Shown piece after piece: positions 9,917-17,805 of a stretch of 64,000 nt of DNA. This stretch comes from Actinomycetes bacterium (GTDB lineage: Bacteria > Actinomycetota > Thermoleophilia > RBG-16-64-13), in NCBI GenBank assembly GCA_024637035.1, contig JAGXFW010000016.1, positions 124,001-188,000 of the forward strand. The letters are read 5' to 3'. The position numbers and the translations under genes are program-made. The stretch's first letter is position 1, and every line of letters begins with the position of its first letter. The notes under the pieces were generated by a model. The model ran no database searches. It saw only the letters and a program-made list of their open reading frames with translations, and was not told the DNA's origin.

Positions 9917-10652
9917 GCGTCACAGATCCGGGTTCGAGGCGCAACGATTGCGGTTCGCCGTCGCAGGAAAGACTCACGACGCCCGGGGGCACCAACAATG
10001 TCACAACGTCTCCCGCCTCCGTAGGAGTGCTCGCCGTGCCCAGGCCGCACAGGTCGAGTCGCCCCTGGCCCGGTATCTTCAGGTGGACCAAGGCGACCGC
10101 ACCACCTTCTTCGAAACGGCCGGCGGAAGGCGCAGGCGCACCTCCCGGCGACGCTGGAGGGGCGGTGGCTGTTGCAGGCCCCAGCCTCACTCGCCAGGGC
10201 ACTCCCCAGCCCCCTCCCTCCTCGCGGGCGCGTATCGTGAGCACGACGTCGCTCGAGAGTGCGACGTCGCCTGTGGAGGCGAACCCCTTCCCAGTGGCGT
10301 CCACAGCGGATCGTCCCATGGGCCATCCGTCTACCCACCACCCGATCTCTCGTTCGCGACCGCGGGGCCCTCCTTTCACCACTACCCCGACGCCGTTTCG
10401 ATCCGGGGTCGCTCCAACAACGGTCACATCCGACCACCTCCACAGCCGTCGCTGCTCGGAATCCGCATCCCCCGCAGTAGGAGCAGTTTCGAGCGAAGCG
10501 CGCCACGAGTCGACCACGTGTTCACGGAGCCCGAGGACGGAACCGGTGAGTGGCATGAGCACGAGGGAGACCATCGTGAGGGCCGCCAAGAGTTCGATGA
10601 GCGTCGATCCACCCTCCCGCCCGCGGAGCCGCGCACAGCGCATCGCTCTCAC
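9903..10652 (-). CDS. Type IV minor pilin-like protein
   Basis: A 249-residue prepilin-like protein: basic leader RLRGREGG, then STLIELLAALTMVSLVLMPL with Glu at +5; Ser replaces the usual Phe at +1. GTG at 10652 is chosen because it overlaps the upstream stop as GTGA and follows AGGGA; ATG at 10643 is an alternative. A much longer in-frame extension exists but is only the antisense shadow of the upstream gene. The C-terminal part includes a Pro/Ala-rich loop and a disulfide-compatible Cys pair (RLDLCGLG and LSCDGEP). It sits in the middle of the minus-strand minor pilin cluster. Confidence 0.75.
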   Translation of the reverse strand: MRAMRCARLRGREGGSTLIELLAALTMVSLVLMPLTGSVLGLREHVVDSWRASLETAPTAGDADSEQRRLWRWSDVTVVGATPDRNGVGVVVKGGPRGREREIGWWVDGWPMGRSAVDATGKGFASTGDVALSSDVVLTIRAREEGGGWGVPWRVRLGPATATAPPASPGGAPAPSAGRFEEGGAVALVHLKIPGQGRLDLCGLGTASTPTEAGDVVTLLVPPGVVSLSCDGEPQSLRLEPGSVTHVFF

Positions 10653-11140
10653 CGAGATTCCCTGCGAGTGAGGCCGCTCTCCACCCGTACCACCACCCTC
10701 TGCCCTGTGCCCTCGTCGCCGAAGTACACAGAACCCGCCGAATCGGGCGCCGCCGTCACGGGCACGAAGCTCACTCGCACACCGCCGTTCAGTCGCCATC
10801 GCGATACGTTGGTGCCGAGACCTGGAGCACCACCGGCGACGAGGAACCGCACTCCCGCGTGTCCCTCGGACGCGACGGTCAGTCCTTCGGCGTCCCAAGC
10901 CACTGTGCGCCCCGTGGCCGAGCCAAGTGCGCCCATCTGTGCGACGACGGCGGCCGTCTGGCAGATCAGCGCGTTGTTGCGATTCACCTGCTGGGCGAGG
11001 GCCGCGGCCACACTCGCGACGGGTAGAGCCGCGCATAGGGCGACAAGCGCGAGCGCGACGAGGAGTTCGATGAGGGTGTGGCCCGACTGGGCCTCAAGGC
11101 TCCGTGGATGAAAGGGCGAGTGAGGATAGTGCTGCATCAT
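10649..11140 (-). CDS. GspH/FimT-like minor pseudopilin
   Basis: A 163-residue protein with prepilin signal QSG followed by HTLIELLVALALVALCAALP. It has Glu at +5 and His instead of Phe at +1, then a GspH-like body ending with strands VYFGDEGTGQRVVVRVE. First gene of a tightly overlapping minor-pilin series. ATG at 11140 is preceded at six bases by TATCGT (11147-11152, minus strand), a possible leaderless promoter separate from the major pilin promoter. Likely a priming or tip subunit (inference from the family). Confidence 0.78.
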   Translation of the reverse strand: MMQHYPHSPFHPRSLEAQSGHTLIELLVALALVALCAALPVASVAAALAQQVNRNNALICQTAAVVAQMGALGSATGRTVAWDAEGLTVASEGHAGVRFLVAGGAPGLGTNVSRWRLNGGVRVSFVPVTAAPDSAGSVYFGDEGTGQRVVVRVESGLTRRESR

Positions 11141-11277
11141 GCCCAGACGATAGATGGCGAAGACGCTTGAGGGAATCGGACTGAGGTATGAGTATGGCGG
11201 CCGGGTGGCGGCGGAGGGGGCGGGTCGTTGCGCGTGCCGGATCGTTCAGGGGCGCCGAACAAGACCTTCGCTGAAGG

Positions 11278-11784
11278 TCACCAACTGGTGACCACGCTGC
11301 CTTCGACGACCCTCACCTTGAGATAGGTGACACCGACCGTTCCCGAGACCTTCACCTGGATACCATATTTGTTGCCACTCGCGCTCACGACGGCGAGATC
11401 GAACGTGTCCCAAGCCTCCCCGTAGTAGTCCATCTCCTTGCGGTTCGCCTGGGCGACGACGGCTGCGGTCACTTGAAGCGAAGCAGCGTCCACGAGGTCG
11501 GCGCTTGAGACCCGCCACGCGAGGTCAGGCTCGATGGCCTCCAGATTCGCCACGGTCAGCACGGCGTAGTTCGGAGCGTCGACGCGGGCGCTCTCCACTA
11601 CCGTCAGAGCGTTCCTGATGGAGGACAGCGCCGCGGTGTCCTGCGCTTGGCTCCTCGTTCCAAGGTACGTGGGTATCGCGATGGCCGCAAGGACTGCGAT
11701 GATCACGATGACCACCAGCAATTCGATCAGCGTGAAACCGGTCTGATGGGCCCAGTCGGTGGTTCGCCCATGCGCCTTCGTCAC
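11278..11784 (-). CDS. Type IV major-type pilin, second copy
   Basis: A 168-residue PilA/PilE-type pilin. The leader ends HQTG, followed by the canonical helix FTLIELLVVIVIIAVLAAIAIP. The body parallels the pilin at 13450-13932: a QAQDTAALSSIRNAL helix, then LEAIEPDLAWRVSS, and a C-terminal GNKYGIQVKVSG block ending SW, so they are paralogues. GTG at 11784 is chosen for its GGGAGG site eight bases upstream. No Cys pair is present. It follows the O-antigen-ligase-like gene and precedes the minor pilin set. Confidence 0.88.
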   Translation of the reverse strand: MTKAHGRTTDWAHQTGFTLIELLVVIVIIAVLAAIAIPTYLGTRSQAQDTAALSSIRNALTVVESARVDAPNYAVLTVANLEAIEPDLAWRVSSADLVDAASLQVTAAVVAQANRKEMDYYGEAWDTFDLAVVSASGNKYGIQVKVSGTVGVTYLKVRVVEGSVVTSW

Positions 11785-11862
11785 CAACACACCCTCCCAG
11801 CGGATGCTAGATACCGCATGCGTACACAGAATATCCACGCGGCGCAACGGATATAAACAATT

Positions 11863-13245
11863 CTACCCGGGATGCGATACGGCAACCGCCTTCGGGACGA
11901 CCGCCACAACAGCCCCCGCAAGCGTGCCGAGCAGCACCCACCATACCCCATCTACCCCGATGGCGGTAACGGTTATCAGGGACTGCCCCATGTACGCGAC
12001 GGCCGCAGCCCAGACTCCCGCGAGGGGCCATCTTTCGCCTGATGACATGAATGGCGCCGAGACAACCCCCGCGCCAAGGTACAGCACCCCCAACACCAAG
12101 CCGCTGAAGAGCACCGCACCGGGAAGGCCGGTCTCCACAGCCCACTCCAGGAGAACACTGTGCGGCTTGTCGGCGACGTGGTCTGCACCCTCGGCCGCAT
12201 CGTAGTCCGCGGTCCGGTATTCTTCGAAGTGCTCTGCCATCATGTCCGGCCCGACCCCGAACAGGGGATTGTCCCGTATCATGGCAATGGCGATCCCCCA
12301 TATGGCCACGCGCCCGGCGTTCCGGTCCGCCTGGGGGTCGGCAAGGGTCTGGACGCTCTGCGCTAGCGTGGTCTGCTGGACCGGCGTTCCCACCCAGGCC
12401 ACCAGTCCCACGAGGGCCACTCCCACCACAGCGGAGATTGCGGCCCCCAGGATCAGCCGACCCAACGCCTTCGCGCGCAAGGCCGGCCACCATAAGGCCA
12501 GGAAGCCAAGCGCAAGCCCGAGCCAGGCTGCCCTCGATGCCGTAAGACCCGTCACGGCTACGCCGAGCGCGGCAGTCGCCAACCACCAGTGTCGCGATCG
12601 CCGACCCTGCTCCATCCACAAGCCGAGCGCTACCAGGGTCGCCATCATCGAGTACGCGCCAAGGAAGATGGGGTTCCCAAGCGTCGAGAACACCCTCCCC
12701 CCTTCACCGCGGAAGGGCTCCCATGTGAAGGGATCGGCACCAAGCGACTGCGCGAGCGCATAGACCATCACCGGGAGCGCCGCCACTACCAGGGCTGCCG
12801 CAACTGTGCGTCCCTCCCCGCGGGCTATATCCTCCGAAGCCGAATAGGCAAGAACGAATAGCATCGAGTTGCCTAGGAGCATGAGATACCCATCCCGACG
12901 AACTGAATTGCCGGTGACGGCGATGGCCGAATCCCCCGAGACCAATGAAGCGATCAGTCCGTCGACCACGAGCAGGCCGAGGCACCAGAGCAGGGGGCTG
13001 GAGCGGACCCTGAAACCCCCAAGCGACATCCCTTCCACAAAGATGGCGAGACCCGCCGTCAAGGCGATCACCATCACGACCTGATACTTGATGTCTCCGA
13101 ACTTGACGAAATCCAAGGGTCTCATCGCCCATATCGGGAGGCTGACAGCGGCGATGAGGAGGGCCGTGCGCACGGTAGACATTCGATCCGGGGCCACCCC
13201 GCACGAGCCGCCCGGCGCCGATGTGATTGCGTTGCTCTTGCTCAC
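11863..13245 (-). CDS. O-antigen ligase-family membrane protein (Wzy_C)
   Basis: A 460-residue polytopic membrane protein with about twelve hydrophobic segments and the Wzy_C domain. The signature region includes RVFSTLGNPIFLGAYS and, in the large loop, GVGPDMMAEHFEEY followed by KPHSVLLEWAVETGLPGAV. The family includes O-antigen ligases, polymerases and bacterial O-oligosaccharyltransferases that glycosylate pilins. Its position between two pilin genes, in a monoderm-type genome, makes pilin glycosylation the more attractive role (inference). A long palindrome separates it from the upstream major pilin gene. Start ATG at 13245 fits family length; ATG at 13182 is an alternative. Confidence 0.82.
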   Translation of the reverse strand: MSKSNAITSAPGGSCGVAPDRMSTVRTALLIAAVSLPIWAMRPLDFVKFGDIKYQVVMVIALTAGLAIFVEGMSLGGFRVRSSPLLWCLGLLVVDGLIASLVSGDSAIAVTGNSVRRDGYLMLLGNSMLFVLAYSASEDIARGEGRTVAAALVVAALPVMVYALAQSLGADPFTWEPFRGEGGRVFSTLGNPIFLGAYSMMATLVALGLWMEQGRRSRHWWLATAALGVAVTGLTASRAAWLGLALGFLALWWPALRAKALGRLILGAAISAVVGVALVGLVAWVGTPVQQTTLAQSVQTLADPQADRNAGRVAIWGIAIAMIRDNPLFGVGPDMMAEHFEEYRTADYDAAEGADHVADKPHSVLLEWAVETGLPGAVLFSGLVLGVLYLGAGVVSAPFMSSGERWPLAGVWAAAVAYMGQSLITVTAIGVDGVWWVLLGTLAGAVVAVVPKAVAVSHPG

Positions 13246-13362
13246 TACGCCCCAAGCCTCCCCGATACGGCTATCGACGCCGTGCCACTACAGCGGTTCG
13301 GCTCGGTCTCGTCCCGCTTTCTCAGGGGCGCCCTCGCGCCGAGCATCCGCTTTTCATGGTGT

Positions 13363-13406
13363 GCAGAAACCAGAGACCCTGCGATCGCAGGGTCTCTGGT
13401 TTCTGC
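13363..13406. repeat. Perfect 44-base palindrome downstream of the major pilin
   Basis: Both halves match without mismatch around a central GCGATCGC, giving an uninterrupted hairpin of about 20 bp. On the minus strand it lies 44 bases after the pilin stop and 118 bases before the glycan-enzyme gene. No U-run follows on that strand; a weak pyrimidine run follows on the plus strand. It is most likely an mRNA-stabilising or partial-termination hairpin that raises pilin mRNA above the downstream genes. Confidence 0.75.
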
Positions 13407-13449
13407 CTTCTTGCTTCCTCGTGGAACTGAGCGAATCAGATCGTACCGC

Positions 13450-13932
13450 TTACCAACCGCTGGAGAAGATGGTGCTGATTATCTTCACGAAGGTGGTGCC
13501 GCCGCCTGCGCCCTTGTTCACAACAACGCCGAACTTGTTCTCCGATTCTGACACAGTGCCGATCGCGTACGTGTTCGCCGTGCCCGAGTAGTTCACGGCT
13601 GCCGCGCTGGTCAAGGCAGTCGCGCCGATCGCCGCAGTTGTGGCTGCAGGACTCACGACGCTGAATGTCACCGACGGTTCGATCGCACCAAGCGACGTAG
13701 TCATCGCGGCACTATCAACGAACGTCCTCGAATCCACGTACTGCGATTCCATGGCCGTCATCGAGTTGCGTACGAGCGACTTGGCCGCCGCATCCTGAGC
13801 CTTCTGGCGCTGGCCAAGGAAGGTGGGGATGGCGATCGCGGCTAGGATGGCGATGATGATGATCACCACCAGAAGTTCGATGAGGGTGAAGCCGCCTTCG
13901 CCCTGCATCCTCTTGCGCATTGCCTGCAACAT
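13450..13932 (-). CDS. Major type IV pilin under a c-di-GMP riboswitch
   Basis: A 160-residue prepilin: leader MLQAMRKRMQGEGG, then the canonical FTLIELLVVIIIIAILAAIAIP helix and a small Ala/Thr/Ser-rich globular domain ending FSSGW. The start is fixed by an excellent AGGAGG site seven bases before ATG 13932. The short body, low-complexity C-terminus and strong translation signals fit the main structural subunit. It is the first gene of the minus-strand pilin set and is preceded by a class I c-di-GMP riboswitch with a spacer of about 90 bases, so its expression should respond to the second messenger. A long hairpin follows the gene. Confidence 0.92.
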   Translation of the reverse strand: MLQAMRKRMQGEGGFTLIELLVVIIIIAILAAIAIPTFLGQRQKAQDAAAKSLVRNSMTAMESQYVDSRTFVDSAAMTTSLGAIEPSVTFSVVSPAATTAAIGATALTSAAAVNYSGTANTYAIGTVSESENKFGVVVNKGAGGGTTFVKIISTIFSSGW

Positions 13933-14019
13933 GATTCCGACCTCCTTGTATAGAACACACGACCGTATCTTGCGCGACAAGCGAAAAGGCCTGCGGCGCT
14001 TTTGGCAAACCACAGACCT

Positions 14020-14106
14020 CAAGGGATCGGTGGCAGCTCAGCCGGCCTCTTGGGCCCTGGAGCTTTGCGTCCCACCCTCGCGAGTGGTTTGCCCTTTACA
14101 CCTTAT
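14020..14106 (-). ncRNA. Class I cyclic-di-GMP riboswitch (GEMM-I) upstream of the major pilin
   Basis: Read on the minus strand, the element contains the invariant GEMM core: GGTG then AAAGGGCAAACC. A P2-type hairpin CCACTCGCGAGGGTGG follows, then GACGCAAAGC. A second hairpin arm comes next (GGCC...GGCCGGCTGAGCTGCC), closing with CACCGATCC to pair with the opening GGTG. This is the c-di-GMP-I aptamer layout (Vc2 type, with GGGCAAACC and GACGCAAAGC as hallmarks). It lies within the leader of the major pilin. Downstream, GTGGTTTGCC (14004-14013) is the exact complement of GGCAAACCAC (14084-14093) in the aptamer and can form a competing helix. A short hairpin, AAAAG..GCC-GCA-GGCCTTTT, follows at about 13985-14003. 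Confidence 0.9.
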
Positions 14107-14319
14107 GACCCAAGTATTCCCGACTCGCTCGACTCTAGACAGGAAATGTTTCTTGCCTGATCTTCGTCGTCCTGCCGCTTGCGGGCGTACGTCTTCCCCG
14201 GGCCTACGTTGCACTGTATCGGCAGGATAGCCGCGGACTTGAGCGGTGTATCTACGCTCGATGGTGGGGATTGGCGCCGCGGGGTCGGGGACGTGCGTCG
14301 GCCGGCAGCCGAGTCGCCG

Positions 14320-14658
14320 TCAGCGGCTGAGGTTCTCTAGGAGGCGGGTGAGAACGAAGAGCCGGTCCTTGTTGTTGGCGATCGCCTGGTTGAACGCTTC
14401 CACATCCGCGCGAAGCTCGGGGGACTGGGTGAGCTTCCACCCTACCCCGTCCGGTTCCCCCACCAGCACGCCGCGTACCTCTAGGAGCGCGGCGGCGGCC
14501 GCCAGGTCTTCTGGGCGACGGCCCAGATCGGCGGCCATGCGGTCGAGGGTGAGGGTGGCTCCCGGATGGGCCGCAAGATAGGCGAGGATATCCCACGCCT
14601 CGAAGGAGGCGACGCACGAATCGATGAATGCGAGGAACGCTTCCCTGCTCTCGTCCAT
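14320..14658 (-). CDS. Small winged-helix-like protein
   Basis: A 112-residue helical protein. An AWDILAYLAAHPGATLTLDRMAAD segment followed by EDLAAAAALLEVRGVLV reads like a winged helix-turn-helix (MarR/ArsR-like), with a C-terminal helix ENLSR. ATG at 14658 is taken because AGTAGGA lies upstream; a GTG at 14676 is an alternative. It lies upstream of the riboswitch on the same strand, divergent from the Nudix gene. It may be a DNA-binding regulator of the neighbourhood, but this is inference from fold pattern and position only. Confidence 0.62.
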   Translation of the reverse strand: MDESREAFLAFIDSCVASFEAWDILAYLAAHPGATLTLDRMAADLGRRPEDLAAAAALLEVRGVLVGEPDGVGWKLTQSPELRADVEAFNQAIANNKDRLFVLTRLLENLSR

Positions 14659-14746
14659 CACCACGTTCCTACTCACCTCGCATATCCATATCAGTCGGTC
14701 TAGTACCCGGGCACGACTCCGGCCATTCCCAAACCAGATCGTTGCC

Positions 14747-14752
14747 TATTCT
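14747..14752 (+). promoter_or_regulatory. Possible -10 element for the Nudix gene
   Basis: TATTCT at 14747-14752 lies about 77 bases before the Nudix ATG; no clear -35 element is seen at the right distance. Confidence 0.3.
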
Positions 14753-14828
14753 AGTAAGATGATCGGCTCATGTCGAGGATTCCCCACAAGAGCGCAGCAA
14801 CGATGTCCCAGTCCGCTTCGATATCCTG

Positions 14829-15329
14829 ATGCGCCCACGACCAAACATCCGCGTGTCGGGACTCGTGCACCACGCGGGCAGGCTATTGCTGGTGCGTCAG
14901 GAAAGATCCGGCAAGGGCTACTGGCTGCTACCGGGCGGCGCTGTTGAGCGCGGTGAGACCCTGGCCGCGGCTCTCGAGCGCGAAGTCGAAGAGGAGTGTG
15001 GCCTCCGCGTGAGAGTGACCGACCCGCCTATCGGTCTCGTGGAGACCATCTCGCCGGACGAAGGACTGACCCGGCACCTGGTCCAGGTCGTGATGTTGGC
15101 GTCGCCTGTTCCACCCGACGACGAGACTCCCATAGGATCCCCCCAACCGGCGCCCCGAGATCCCATCATCCGCGCGGTTCGCTGGGTCGGGATCGAGGGG
15201 TTCCTCGGACTCGATCTTCACCCCCCCATCGCCGATCTGCTGCAAGCCTGGCTTCATGAACTCGCCACCAAGGCGACCGGCCACCCGTTGACCTTTCGCT
15301 CAGCGGGGAGACGCTGGGCTGACGAGTGA
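14829..15329 (+). CDS. Nudix hydrolase
   Basis: A 166-residue Nudix-fold pyrophosphohydrolase. The Nudix box is intact: [20 protein letters not shown] followed by ECGL, with the REVEEE metal-binding glutamates. The preceding strand pattern [18 protein letters not shown] is also typical. Substrate specificity (nucleotide sugar, ADP-ribose, oxidised nucleotide) cannot be read from the sequence. There is no strong ribosome-binding site before ATG 14829. It lies between the two pilin half-clusters but shows no obvious tie to pilus biogenesis. Confidence 0.88.
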
Positions 15330-15391
15330 CGCACCATTCGTGTTCGCCGTTCGTTCCAAAAACCGAGAAGGACTGGATCATGATCGTAGCC

Positions 15392-15397
15392 TATAGT
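15392..15397 (+). promoter_or_regulatory. Candidate -10 element upstream of the plus-strand pilin operon
   Basis: TATAGT at 15392-15397 precedes the PilV-like gene by about 180 bases; no convincing -35 is seen. I looked in 15330-15578 for a second GEMM core (GGGCAAACC or GACGCAAAG) and found none. Confidence 0.3.
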
Positions 15398-15578
15398 ACG
15401 CGTCAACGTCGGCCGCGGTTCATACTTCTCAAGAAGAGGTAGTGGTCTGCCGATAGTATGGACAAGGGCCGAGCCTGGTTCGAGTGCCCCTGCATAAGGG
15501 CAGGTATGCGGAGAGACCGGAACCGCACGAGCTTCGGCGAGGGGCATGGGTTCTCCAGAGAGGAACGGGAGCGGAGGC

Positions 15579-17090
15579 ATGATAGACATACGTTTCCGAA
15601 GCCGGCACCATAAGGGCCCAAGCGCCGGCTTCACATTGATCGAAGTCATGGTCGCGAGCCTGTTGCTCCTCGTGGTCCTCGCGGGCTTCCTGCCTTTCTT
15701 CTTGAGCGGCTTGGAGAAGTCGTCGTCCTCTCGCTTCCGGAGTGCCGCCACGAACGTAGCTCGACAGAAGCTGGAAGAGATCCGACAACTCGACTATCGC
15801 GAGATCAAGCAGAATACGGCCGCGCCCACCGATCCCACCAATCTGAGCATTATGCTCGGCACGACCTCGGTCATGCGCGGGGTCACCTACAACATCGCGT
15901 ACTCTGTCGCTAACTCCGCATCAGGCGGGGGCCAGCTCAAGAAGGTCATCGTCACCGTTTCCTGGACCGGTAAGCCGGTGGGCGATCCGGCTGTCATGAG
16001 CACGCTGATCCACCAACAGTTCCTTGGGCCTCGGTTGTCCCTGGTTGAGTTCACGCCCACCATCAACCTCACCACCGACCCGCTCGGCTCCCCCTTCGCG
16101 TTGGTGTCGGGCACCATCGTGGCCAAGTACCACGTCGCCCGCAGCGATTGGGACCTCGTGTACAAGAACCTCAACCTGTCGGGTATGACCGCCAAGAACG
16201 TCTACCTACGCTCGGCCTTCATCGACGATCAAGGGGCCTCCGTGCAACTAGGGAATCCGACGCTCGAGTACCGGATCCCGTCATCGACGCTGAAGCACAC
16301 CTTCGGCGGTGACGGGAAGGTGAACGACATCTGGTTCGAGTACACCTTCGACAGCACCACCCTCCCCGACGGTTATTGGGATGTGGAGGGTCTTGCCTAC
16401 AACGAGTTCGACCAGCCGGGCAACCTGTACAAGTTGCGCGTACGGATCGAGAAGGCCGCGCCGAATGCGGTCGCCAACCTTCTGGCTCAGGTGGCCGACG
16501 ACAAGACCATCCTTCTCACCTGGGTGCCCGGCGCCGAGCGAGACCGGGTCTCCTGGGTTCTCGAGCGCCGCAAGCGCGATACGGCGGGCACGTGGACCAC
16601 CCCTTGGGTGACCGTGACCACATTGCTCGGCATTGAAAACACCTACACCGACGTGGGGAACACGACCACGTTCATCGATCCATGGGGCACCACGGCAACG
16701 ACCAACACCTATCAGTACAGCCTCAAGGGCATCGATATCGCGGGGAAAGTGGGCACTCCGGTCACCGTGCAGCAGGAACTGCCGGCGACGGCCGTCGTGT
16801 CTACGACCACCACGACGGGCGGCACTACCACGACGGCCGCCGCGCTCTACTTCGTCACCATCAAAAACAGCGCCCCCAAGGCTTTCAACCTCACGGTGAA
16901 GGACTCGAGCAACACGACCGTCTATACCGGTCAGGTAGGGAAGAACGGTGGCATCGTGACGATCGGCAACCTCCCGCCGGGCAACTACCAGGTCACGGCA
17001 GTCGAGGTGACCAGCAAGTCGCCGCGTACGCTCTCTACGACCTTCCTGCTTCCCGCCCAGGCCGGTCAACAGGTCTGGAACATCTTCTGA
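15579..17090 (+). CDS. PilV-like prepilin with Fn3-like domain and Thr-rich linker
   Basis: A 503-residue prepilin. Leader SRHHKGPSAG precedes FTLIEVMVASLLLLVVLAG (Glu at +5). A PilV-like region follows (NVARQKLEEIRQLDY), then an extended beta-rich domain. About residues 305-410 form a fibronectin-III-like module (ANLLAQVADDKTILLTWVPG to YQYSLKGIDIAGKVG), then a TTTTTGGTTTT linker and a carboxypeptidase-regulatory-like beta domain (GNLPPGNYQVTAVEV). ATG at 15579 follows GGAGCGGAGG. Its large size and adhesin-like modules suggest a tip-located minor pilin that contacts surfaces or substrates (inference). First gene of a three-gene plus-strand pilin operon. Confidence 0.82.
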   Translation: MIDIRFRSRHHKGPSAGFTLIEVMVASLLLLVVLAGFLPFFLSGLEKSSSSRFRSAATNVARQKLEEIRQLDYREIKQNTAAPTDPTNLSIMLGTTSVMRGVTYNIAYSVANSASGGGQLKKVIVTVSWTGKPVGDPAVMSTLIHQQFLGPRLSLVEFTPTINLTTDPLGSPFALVSGTIVAKYHVARSDWDLVYKNLNLSGMTAKNVYLRSAFIDDQGASVQLGNPTLEYRIPSSTLKHTFGGDGKVNDIWFEYTFDSTTLPDGYWDVEGLAYNEFDQPGNLYKLRVRIEKAAPNAVANLLAQVADDKTILLTWVPGAERDRVSWVLERRKRDTAGTWTTPWVTVTTLLGIENTYTDVGNTTTFIDPWGTTATTNTYQYSLKGIDIAGKVGTPVTVQQELPATAVVSTTTTTGGTTTTAAALYFVTIKNSAPKAFNLTVKDSSNTTVYTGQVGKNGGIVTIGNLPPGNYQVTAVEVTSKSPRTLSTTFLLPAQAGQQVWNIF

Positions 17091-17109
17091 TGGAAGCACG
17101 GCCCACGTC

Positions 17110-17805
17110 ATGATGGCACGACTCTGCAGATCGATTCGCTCGCGGTCGGTCAATGCCGCTGGTCAAGACGGGGTCACCTTGGTGGAACTCCTCGTGGTCA
17201 TGATGCTTATGATCGTGGTCATGGGGGCCATCTTCACCGTCTGGAGTCGACTCGAGCACACCTACTTGTTCACCGAAGACGACATCCGTGCGCAGGAACA
17301 GGCGCGCATGGCGCTGGGCGAGATGGTCGAGTTCATCCGCACGGCGCGCACCCCCGCTTCTGTCACCAGCGAAGTCCTGGATGCGCCGATCCCGAAGGCC
17401 ACACCCGAAGAGATCTGGATCTGGACCGACGTCGACCGCGACGCCAGCCACACTCTCGAACTGGTGCGCTTCTACCTCAGTACAGTCGGTACCAACTCCT
17501 ACCTCCTCCGTCAGGAGTCTCCCTCCAAGGACGGCAACTTCACGTCGACCGCCGTACGTATCGTGAACGAGAACATCAGGAACGACCCGGCGGGCACCCC
17601 GATAGCCTCACCGGTGAAGCCCATGTTCAAATACTACGATTCGGGCGGTTCCCAGCTCACACCGAATGCAACGACACGTTCCGTGGACGTAACACAGATC
17701 CGCTCGATCCGGATCCACCTGATGGTCGATATCGACCCGAACAGGGCCCCGGTGGTGCACGAGTTGACATCCGTCGTCCAGCCGCGCAACTTGAGAACGT
17801 ACTGA
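17110..17805 (+). CDS. PilW-like minor pilin
   Basis: A 231-residue prepilin with leader ending AAGQDG and helix VTLVELLVVMMLMIVVMGA, Glu at +5. The body has the PilW/GspJ pattern: ARMALGEMVEFIRTART near residue 65 and a C-terminal strand IHLMVDIDPN. It starts 20 bases after the PilV-like stop and ends 16 bases before the PilX-like start, so it is co-transcribed. The ribosome-binding site is weak; the second Met is a possible start. Confidence 0.8.
   Translation: MMARLCRSIRSRSVNAAGQDGVTLVELLVVMMLMIVVMGAIFTVWSRLEHTYLFTEDDIRAQEQARMALGEMVEFIRTARTPASVTSEVLDAPIPKATPEEIWIWTDVDRDASHTLELVRFYLSTVGTNSYLLRQESPSKDGNFTSTAVRIVNENIRNDPAGTPIASPVKPMFKYYDSGGSQLTPNATTRSVDVTQIRSIRIHLMVDIDPNRAPVVHELTSVVQPRNLRTY

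Follow-up and report, generated by a model that had tools for sequence, protein, structure and literature searches.

The closest described relatives of the leader reported here are the class I c-di-GMP riboswitches (GEMM-I; RF01051 and RF03167), with which it shares the sequence and fold of the aptamer and, likewise, a position before a gene for a surface structure, whereas its expression platform pairs with the 5′ strand of the ligand core. In C. difficile, class I switches such as Cd1, located before flgB, are OFF switches that act by termination (PMC6366702, PMC6200980), and the logic given for Cd1 in the portions of these papers covered, in which the ligand favours an intrinsic terminator and high c-di-GMP means OFF, is the one proposed here for the window, i.e., the 64,000-nucleotide stretch of DNA that was analysed. 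Cd1 precedes flgB, whereas the leader in the window precedes a pilin gene, and a fourth strand is not mentioned for Cd1 in the covered text. The leader of C. difficile pilA1 is described, in the same partial source, as a class II c-di-GMP ON riboswitch (PMC6366702); it also places a type IV pilin under the control of c-di-GMP through the choice of a terminator, but its aptamer belongs to an unrelated class and the direction predicted for the window is the opposite one. As outlined in the covered part of another source, the guanine riboswitch follows the same three-state OFF logic (aptamer, antiterminator, and terminator), but its antiterminator uses the 3′ strand of P1 (PMC9495366), whereas the antiterminator of the window would use the 5′ strand of the core. 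The covered part of a further paper (PMC8835794) held nothing decisive on the platform, and the mostly open literature surveyed, whose scope did not extend to the original GEMM papers, yielded no description of a platform with a core-strand antiterminator, which is weak evidence of novelty.

Contact residues of c-di-GMP-I have been named as G20, A47, and C92 in the covered part of a structural source (PMC4744006). In the window, a putative class I c-di-GMP (GEMM-I) aptamer, with c-di-GMP as its presumed ligand, occupies positions 14028..14102 of the minus strand and comprises P1 (GGUG/CACC), P2, and P3. It scores 58.7 bits with the covariance model of RF01051 (gathering threshold 35) and, narrowly, 59.7 bits with that of RF03167 (gathering threshold 59), and covariation is seen in P1 and P3 across relatives. 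When aligned to the RF03167 model, the consensus reads GGGACGCGAAG and the window aptamer GGGACGCAAAG; the hallmark of the c-di-GMP-I-GGC variant (RF03167) is absent, as the segment GCAAAG of the window has A at its third base where the consensus GCGAAG has G, the base to which we take the name GGC to refer. The window has G, A, and C at the positions that we presume to be equivalent, in Vc2 numbering, to the three contact residues, and by these the aptamer would look like an ordinary c-di-GMP-I aptamer.

The aptamer ends about 95 bases 5′ of the start codon of the gene proposed to be regulated, which codes for a type IV pilin-like protein of 160 amino acids (13450..13932, minus strand; PF07963 N_methyl, E 2.2e-7) and is preceded by a Shine-Dalgarno (SD) sequence, AAGGAGG, read from the letters at 13941..13947 of the minus strand. 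A putative −10 element, AAUACU, lies just 5′ of the aptamer (14113..14118, minus strand), and the similar sequences CATACT/TAGTAT occupy the −10 place in relatives; a promoter scan found nothing. The source genome contains 17 GGDEF matches. Around the riboswitch (window 10649-17805) lie several other N_methyl (pilin-like) genes, distributed over both strands, and an O-antigen ligase-like gene. A second GEMM-I aptamer is found elsewhere in the source genome (L001; L048; G000:C30:54060-54140, minus strand; 71.1 bits) and ends about 10 bases 5′ of a possible ATG; neither an anti-core nor a terminator was seen on reading that locus.

The original prediction held that ten bases of the aptamer core recur downstream as their exact complement, and the letters confirm it. 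The core strand, A (GGCAAACCAC; 14084..14093, minus strand), which comprises the ligand core and the start of the 5′ strand of P2, and the anti-core, B (GTGGTTTGCC, or GUGGUUUGCC; 14004..14013, minus strand), its conserved and putative antiterminator partner, are complementary perfectly over 10 bases and no longer. This is the longest perfect complement within the 175-base leader. When the leader was shuffled with its dinucleotides preserved, 29 of 2000 sequences contained a complement of at least 10 bases; when only the downstream part was shuffled, 25 of 20,000 contained a perfect 10-mer complement to A. Chance is therefore unlikely from the window alone, and it is excluded because the complement is conserved in relatives. 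Since A:B and the ligand-bound aptamer both need the core and the 5′ strand of P2, each would exclude the other, and this predicted mutual exclusion, conserved in relatives, is well supported at the level of sequence. The simple two-state switch that had been proposed on this basis keeps its exclusion but gives way to three helices linked through shared strands: A:B and B:C, with C:D added in relatives. Among 26 aligned relatives, A:B is paired in 93.4% of cells and slid versions of it in at most 43.6%. The same alignment holds no two-sided changes in A:B because the core hardly varies, so that covariation cannot prove this helix.

Covariation is found instead in the terminator. Its 5′ arm (AGGUCUGUGG; 14010..14019, minus strand) shares GUGG with B, and its 3′ arm, C (CCGCAGGCCU; 13987..13996, minus strand), pairs with the 5′ arm at 10 of 10 positions and contributes its last base as the first U of a short U-run (13984..13987, minus strand). 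The complete element, AGGUCUGUGG - UUUGCCAAAAGCG - CCGCAGGCCU - UUU, thus extends over 14019..13984 with a stem of 10 bp (14019..13987); its predicted energy with flanking bases is −19.6 kcal/mol. Aptamer and terminator are compatible with each other, and A:B excludes both, as it shares A with the former and GUGG with the latter. Many relatives have a U-run of six or seven, that of the window is short and broken, and a generic terminator scan of the window called no terminator. In the 26 aligned leaders, 98.5% of the terminator pairs are standard, 7 of the 10 pairs display two-sided changes, and none of 500 shuffles covaries as well. The loop segment UUUGCC, dispensable for the hairpin, is nearly constant, unlike the loop bases behind it, and 23 of the 26 rows have G[TA]GG, then U3-5 and GCC; this constancy is the best argument for a second partner of B. 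The small hairpin at 13985-14003 that had been put forward as the output of the switch did not find support, the covarying terminator being the 10-bp hairpin. The pairing AAAAG/CUUUU (14003..13984) can be read in the letters, yet its predicted probability does not exceed 0.04 at any of the transcript lengths tested.

Read from the sequence, the strands, their overlap, their conservation, and the covariation of the terminator point, with good probability, to a class I c-di-GMP riboswitch that acts as a transcriptional OFF switch of the type IV pilin gene; what the ligand is, which way the switch responds, and that transcription ends there in the cell we infer. With c-di-GMP bound, A would be locked in the aptamer and B would remain free to enter the terminator stem as its 5′ arm; B:C would then form, and RNA polymerase would stop at the U-run, leaving the pilin gene OFF. 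Without ligand, B would pair with A on emerging and take GUGG from the terminator, and the A:B helix so formed would allow read-through into the pilin gene.

Folding of the window leader agrees with the proposed alternative helix: A:B is the minimum-energy fold (−54.2 vs. −50.7 kcal/mol for the terminator), and in prefix folding its probability is 1.00 once B has emerged, with the terminator at 0.02 at the U-run. A two-state estimate that rests on an assumed Kd of 1 nM raises the probability of the terminator from 0.02 without ligand to 0.34 at 1 µM and 0.83 at 10 µM ligand. Among the relatives, 15 of 20 leaders are more stable at the U-run as the terminator than as A:B when no ligand is present (A:B median +3.6 kcal/mol), a comparison that leaves aside L111, L098, L134, L102, L102b, L132, L128, L130, and L137 (imperfect or shifted anti-core). 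Under a fuller constraint, A:B is favoured in 7 and the terminator in 19 of 26 leaders, several of which have shifted anti-cores that this constraint treats unfairly. Leaders that favour the terminator would need kinetic control, i.e., A:B formed before C is made.

Matches to RF03167 are present in 59 of 99 related genomes, and a subset of these matches (93 loci, 88 of them distinct) made up the first count. A pilin reading frame lies downstream in 25 of the 88 distinct GEMM loci; the anti-core GGTTTGCC occurs within 90 bases in 10 of these 25 distinct pilin-linked leaders and in none of the 63 others (Fisher p 7e-7), and the exact anti-core is absent from the remaining 15 pilin-linked leaders. 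Of 399 genomes of the class, 17 contain the ordered pattern of core, RCGCAAAG, and anti-core, each a single time, and none contains a reversed control pattern. The ordered pattern was absent from 198 genomes of a different phylum, a weak control because the number of testable aptamers in this outgroup is not shown and its centre genome has no GEMM match. A covariance model of aptamer plus terminator, R1, gave matches of at least 80 bits in three families of the class (f1, f3, and f6) and, across 396 genomes of the phylum, only in the same class as the source. R1 was built from eight terminator-bearing leaders, seven of which retain GUGGUU or more of the anti-core, so that its matches favour leaders with anti-core and terminator; the less biased counts are those of the loci found mainly by the aptamer model (10 of 25 vs. 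0 of 63) and of the ordered pattern (17 of 399). A few strong R1 matches, e.g., L135 and L136, were without anti-core or terminator when read, and the search that made A4 was run without L098, L111, and L133-L136. Two loci, L098 and L102, each carry two GEMM aptamers in a row, about 800 bases apart and each followed by a pilin frame; three of their four anti-cores lack bases of the standard form or are replaced, and the fourth aptamer (L098b) has no anti-core.

A further strand, D, follows the U-run. In the window it lies at 13971..13983 of the minus strand and pairs weakly with C; in most relatives it is found directly 3′ of the U-run and pairs with the 3′ part of the loop and with the first bases of C, as in L127 (UCCGGCCAC / GUGGCCGGA) and L121 (GGCAAGCCACG / CGUGGUUUGCC), the D of the latter being a repeat of B. 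In L121 (G085:C64), the copies alternate, with GGCAA[A/G]CCAC as the sequence of A and of C and GUGGUUUGCC as that of B and of D; D could therefore also pair with the aptamer core in this leader. The tests on D dropped L111, which is identical to L110. Compared with shuffled D (anchored arms), C:D reached p<0.05 in 22 of 28 leaders, the D stretches having been chosen after the pattern was seen by eye. The same stretches were reused in a partner swap, which controls for composition and shared motifs: own partners average −14.5 kcal/mol and permuted partners −9.4 kcal/mol, none of 20,000 permutations reaches the observed sum, and the result also stands in f6 alone and in f1 plus f3 taken together. 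C:D is poor in the window (p 0.294; swap rank 15 of 27) and in its congener (p 0.239; swap rank 7 of 27). D shifts the energies in favour of A:B in 19 of 20 leaders, the median passing from +3.6 to −2.8 kcal/mol. Polymerase has already passed the U-run when D is made, so that D comes too late to influence the decision to terminate; it may instead serve as a read-through lock or protect the leader. Tentatively, and with less than even confidence, we suggest that the pilin leaders of the three families form a network of A:B, B:C, and C:D in which the conserved D, starting at the U-run or just behind it, locks read-through, C:D trapping C and fixing the ON fold. If true, this would place an element of a riboswitch 3′ of its terminator, where the termination decision can no longer be influenced; we know of no described role for a riboswitch element in such a place. 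The covarying D poses the question of why a helix that is possible only after the decision should be selected.

Other readings of the leader would dispense with the switch, its level, or its direction. A:B could be a by-product next to a terminator that is constitutive or Rho-linked, with GUGGUUUGCC kept for another reason, e.g., as a protein site in the loop, and the missing covariation of A:B would fit this, as would the many leaders that favour the terminator at equilibrium; we nevertheless hold it to be unlikely, as the match of UUUGCC to the core is exact in three families despite changes in the remaining loop and the spacer, and B-type sequence was found only behind pilin-linked GEMM aptamers (10 of 25 vs. 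0 of 63). That the exchange of helices alters access to the pilin SD sequence, and so acts on translation, appears quite unlikely given the covarying hairpin and U-run of most leaders; moreover, the predicted exposure of the SD sequence has no consistent difference between the ON and OFF folds across 28 distinct leaders, which argues for transcription over translation. A translational switch would nonetheless suit a phylum in which translational platforms are described as preferred, in the part of the source covered (PMC12452182), and it would suit L134 (G079:C21), which keeps the anti-core, in which no terminator was found, and whose D reads CCUCUCUU, complementary to the SD region GAGAGG; this leader is possibly a translational offshoot.

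An ON switch, in which the ligand promotes pilin expression, has its precedent in the class II leader of C. difficile pilA1 as presented in the covered text (PMC6366702). For the window we regard this as very unlikely, because the terminator uses no base of the aptamer and its sole competitor is a strand that the ligand-bound aptamer displaces. As a separate observation, an ON-type platform was sought in non-pilin leaders, with the 3′ strand of the aptamer as a terminator arm, and the simple test was positive in one of six (L003), so that such a platform is not proposed for them.

The preferred reading thus remains that of a transcriptional OFF switch: the locus appears to hold a real, conserved three-state riboswitch before a pilin gene, with its OFF direction, its ligand, and termination as predictions. 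Its antiterminator would attack the ligand core itself and not P1, and its output would be a transcription terminator in a phylum that the covered part of the literature describes as preferring translational riboswitches (PMC12452182). Under this model, c-di-GMP should turn off a type IV pilin in the class of Actinomycetota concerned, opposite to the direction described for C. difficile pilA1.
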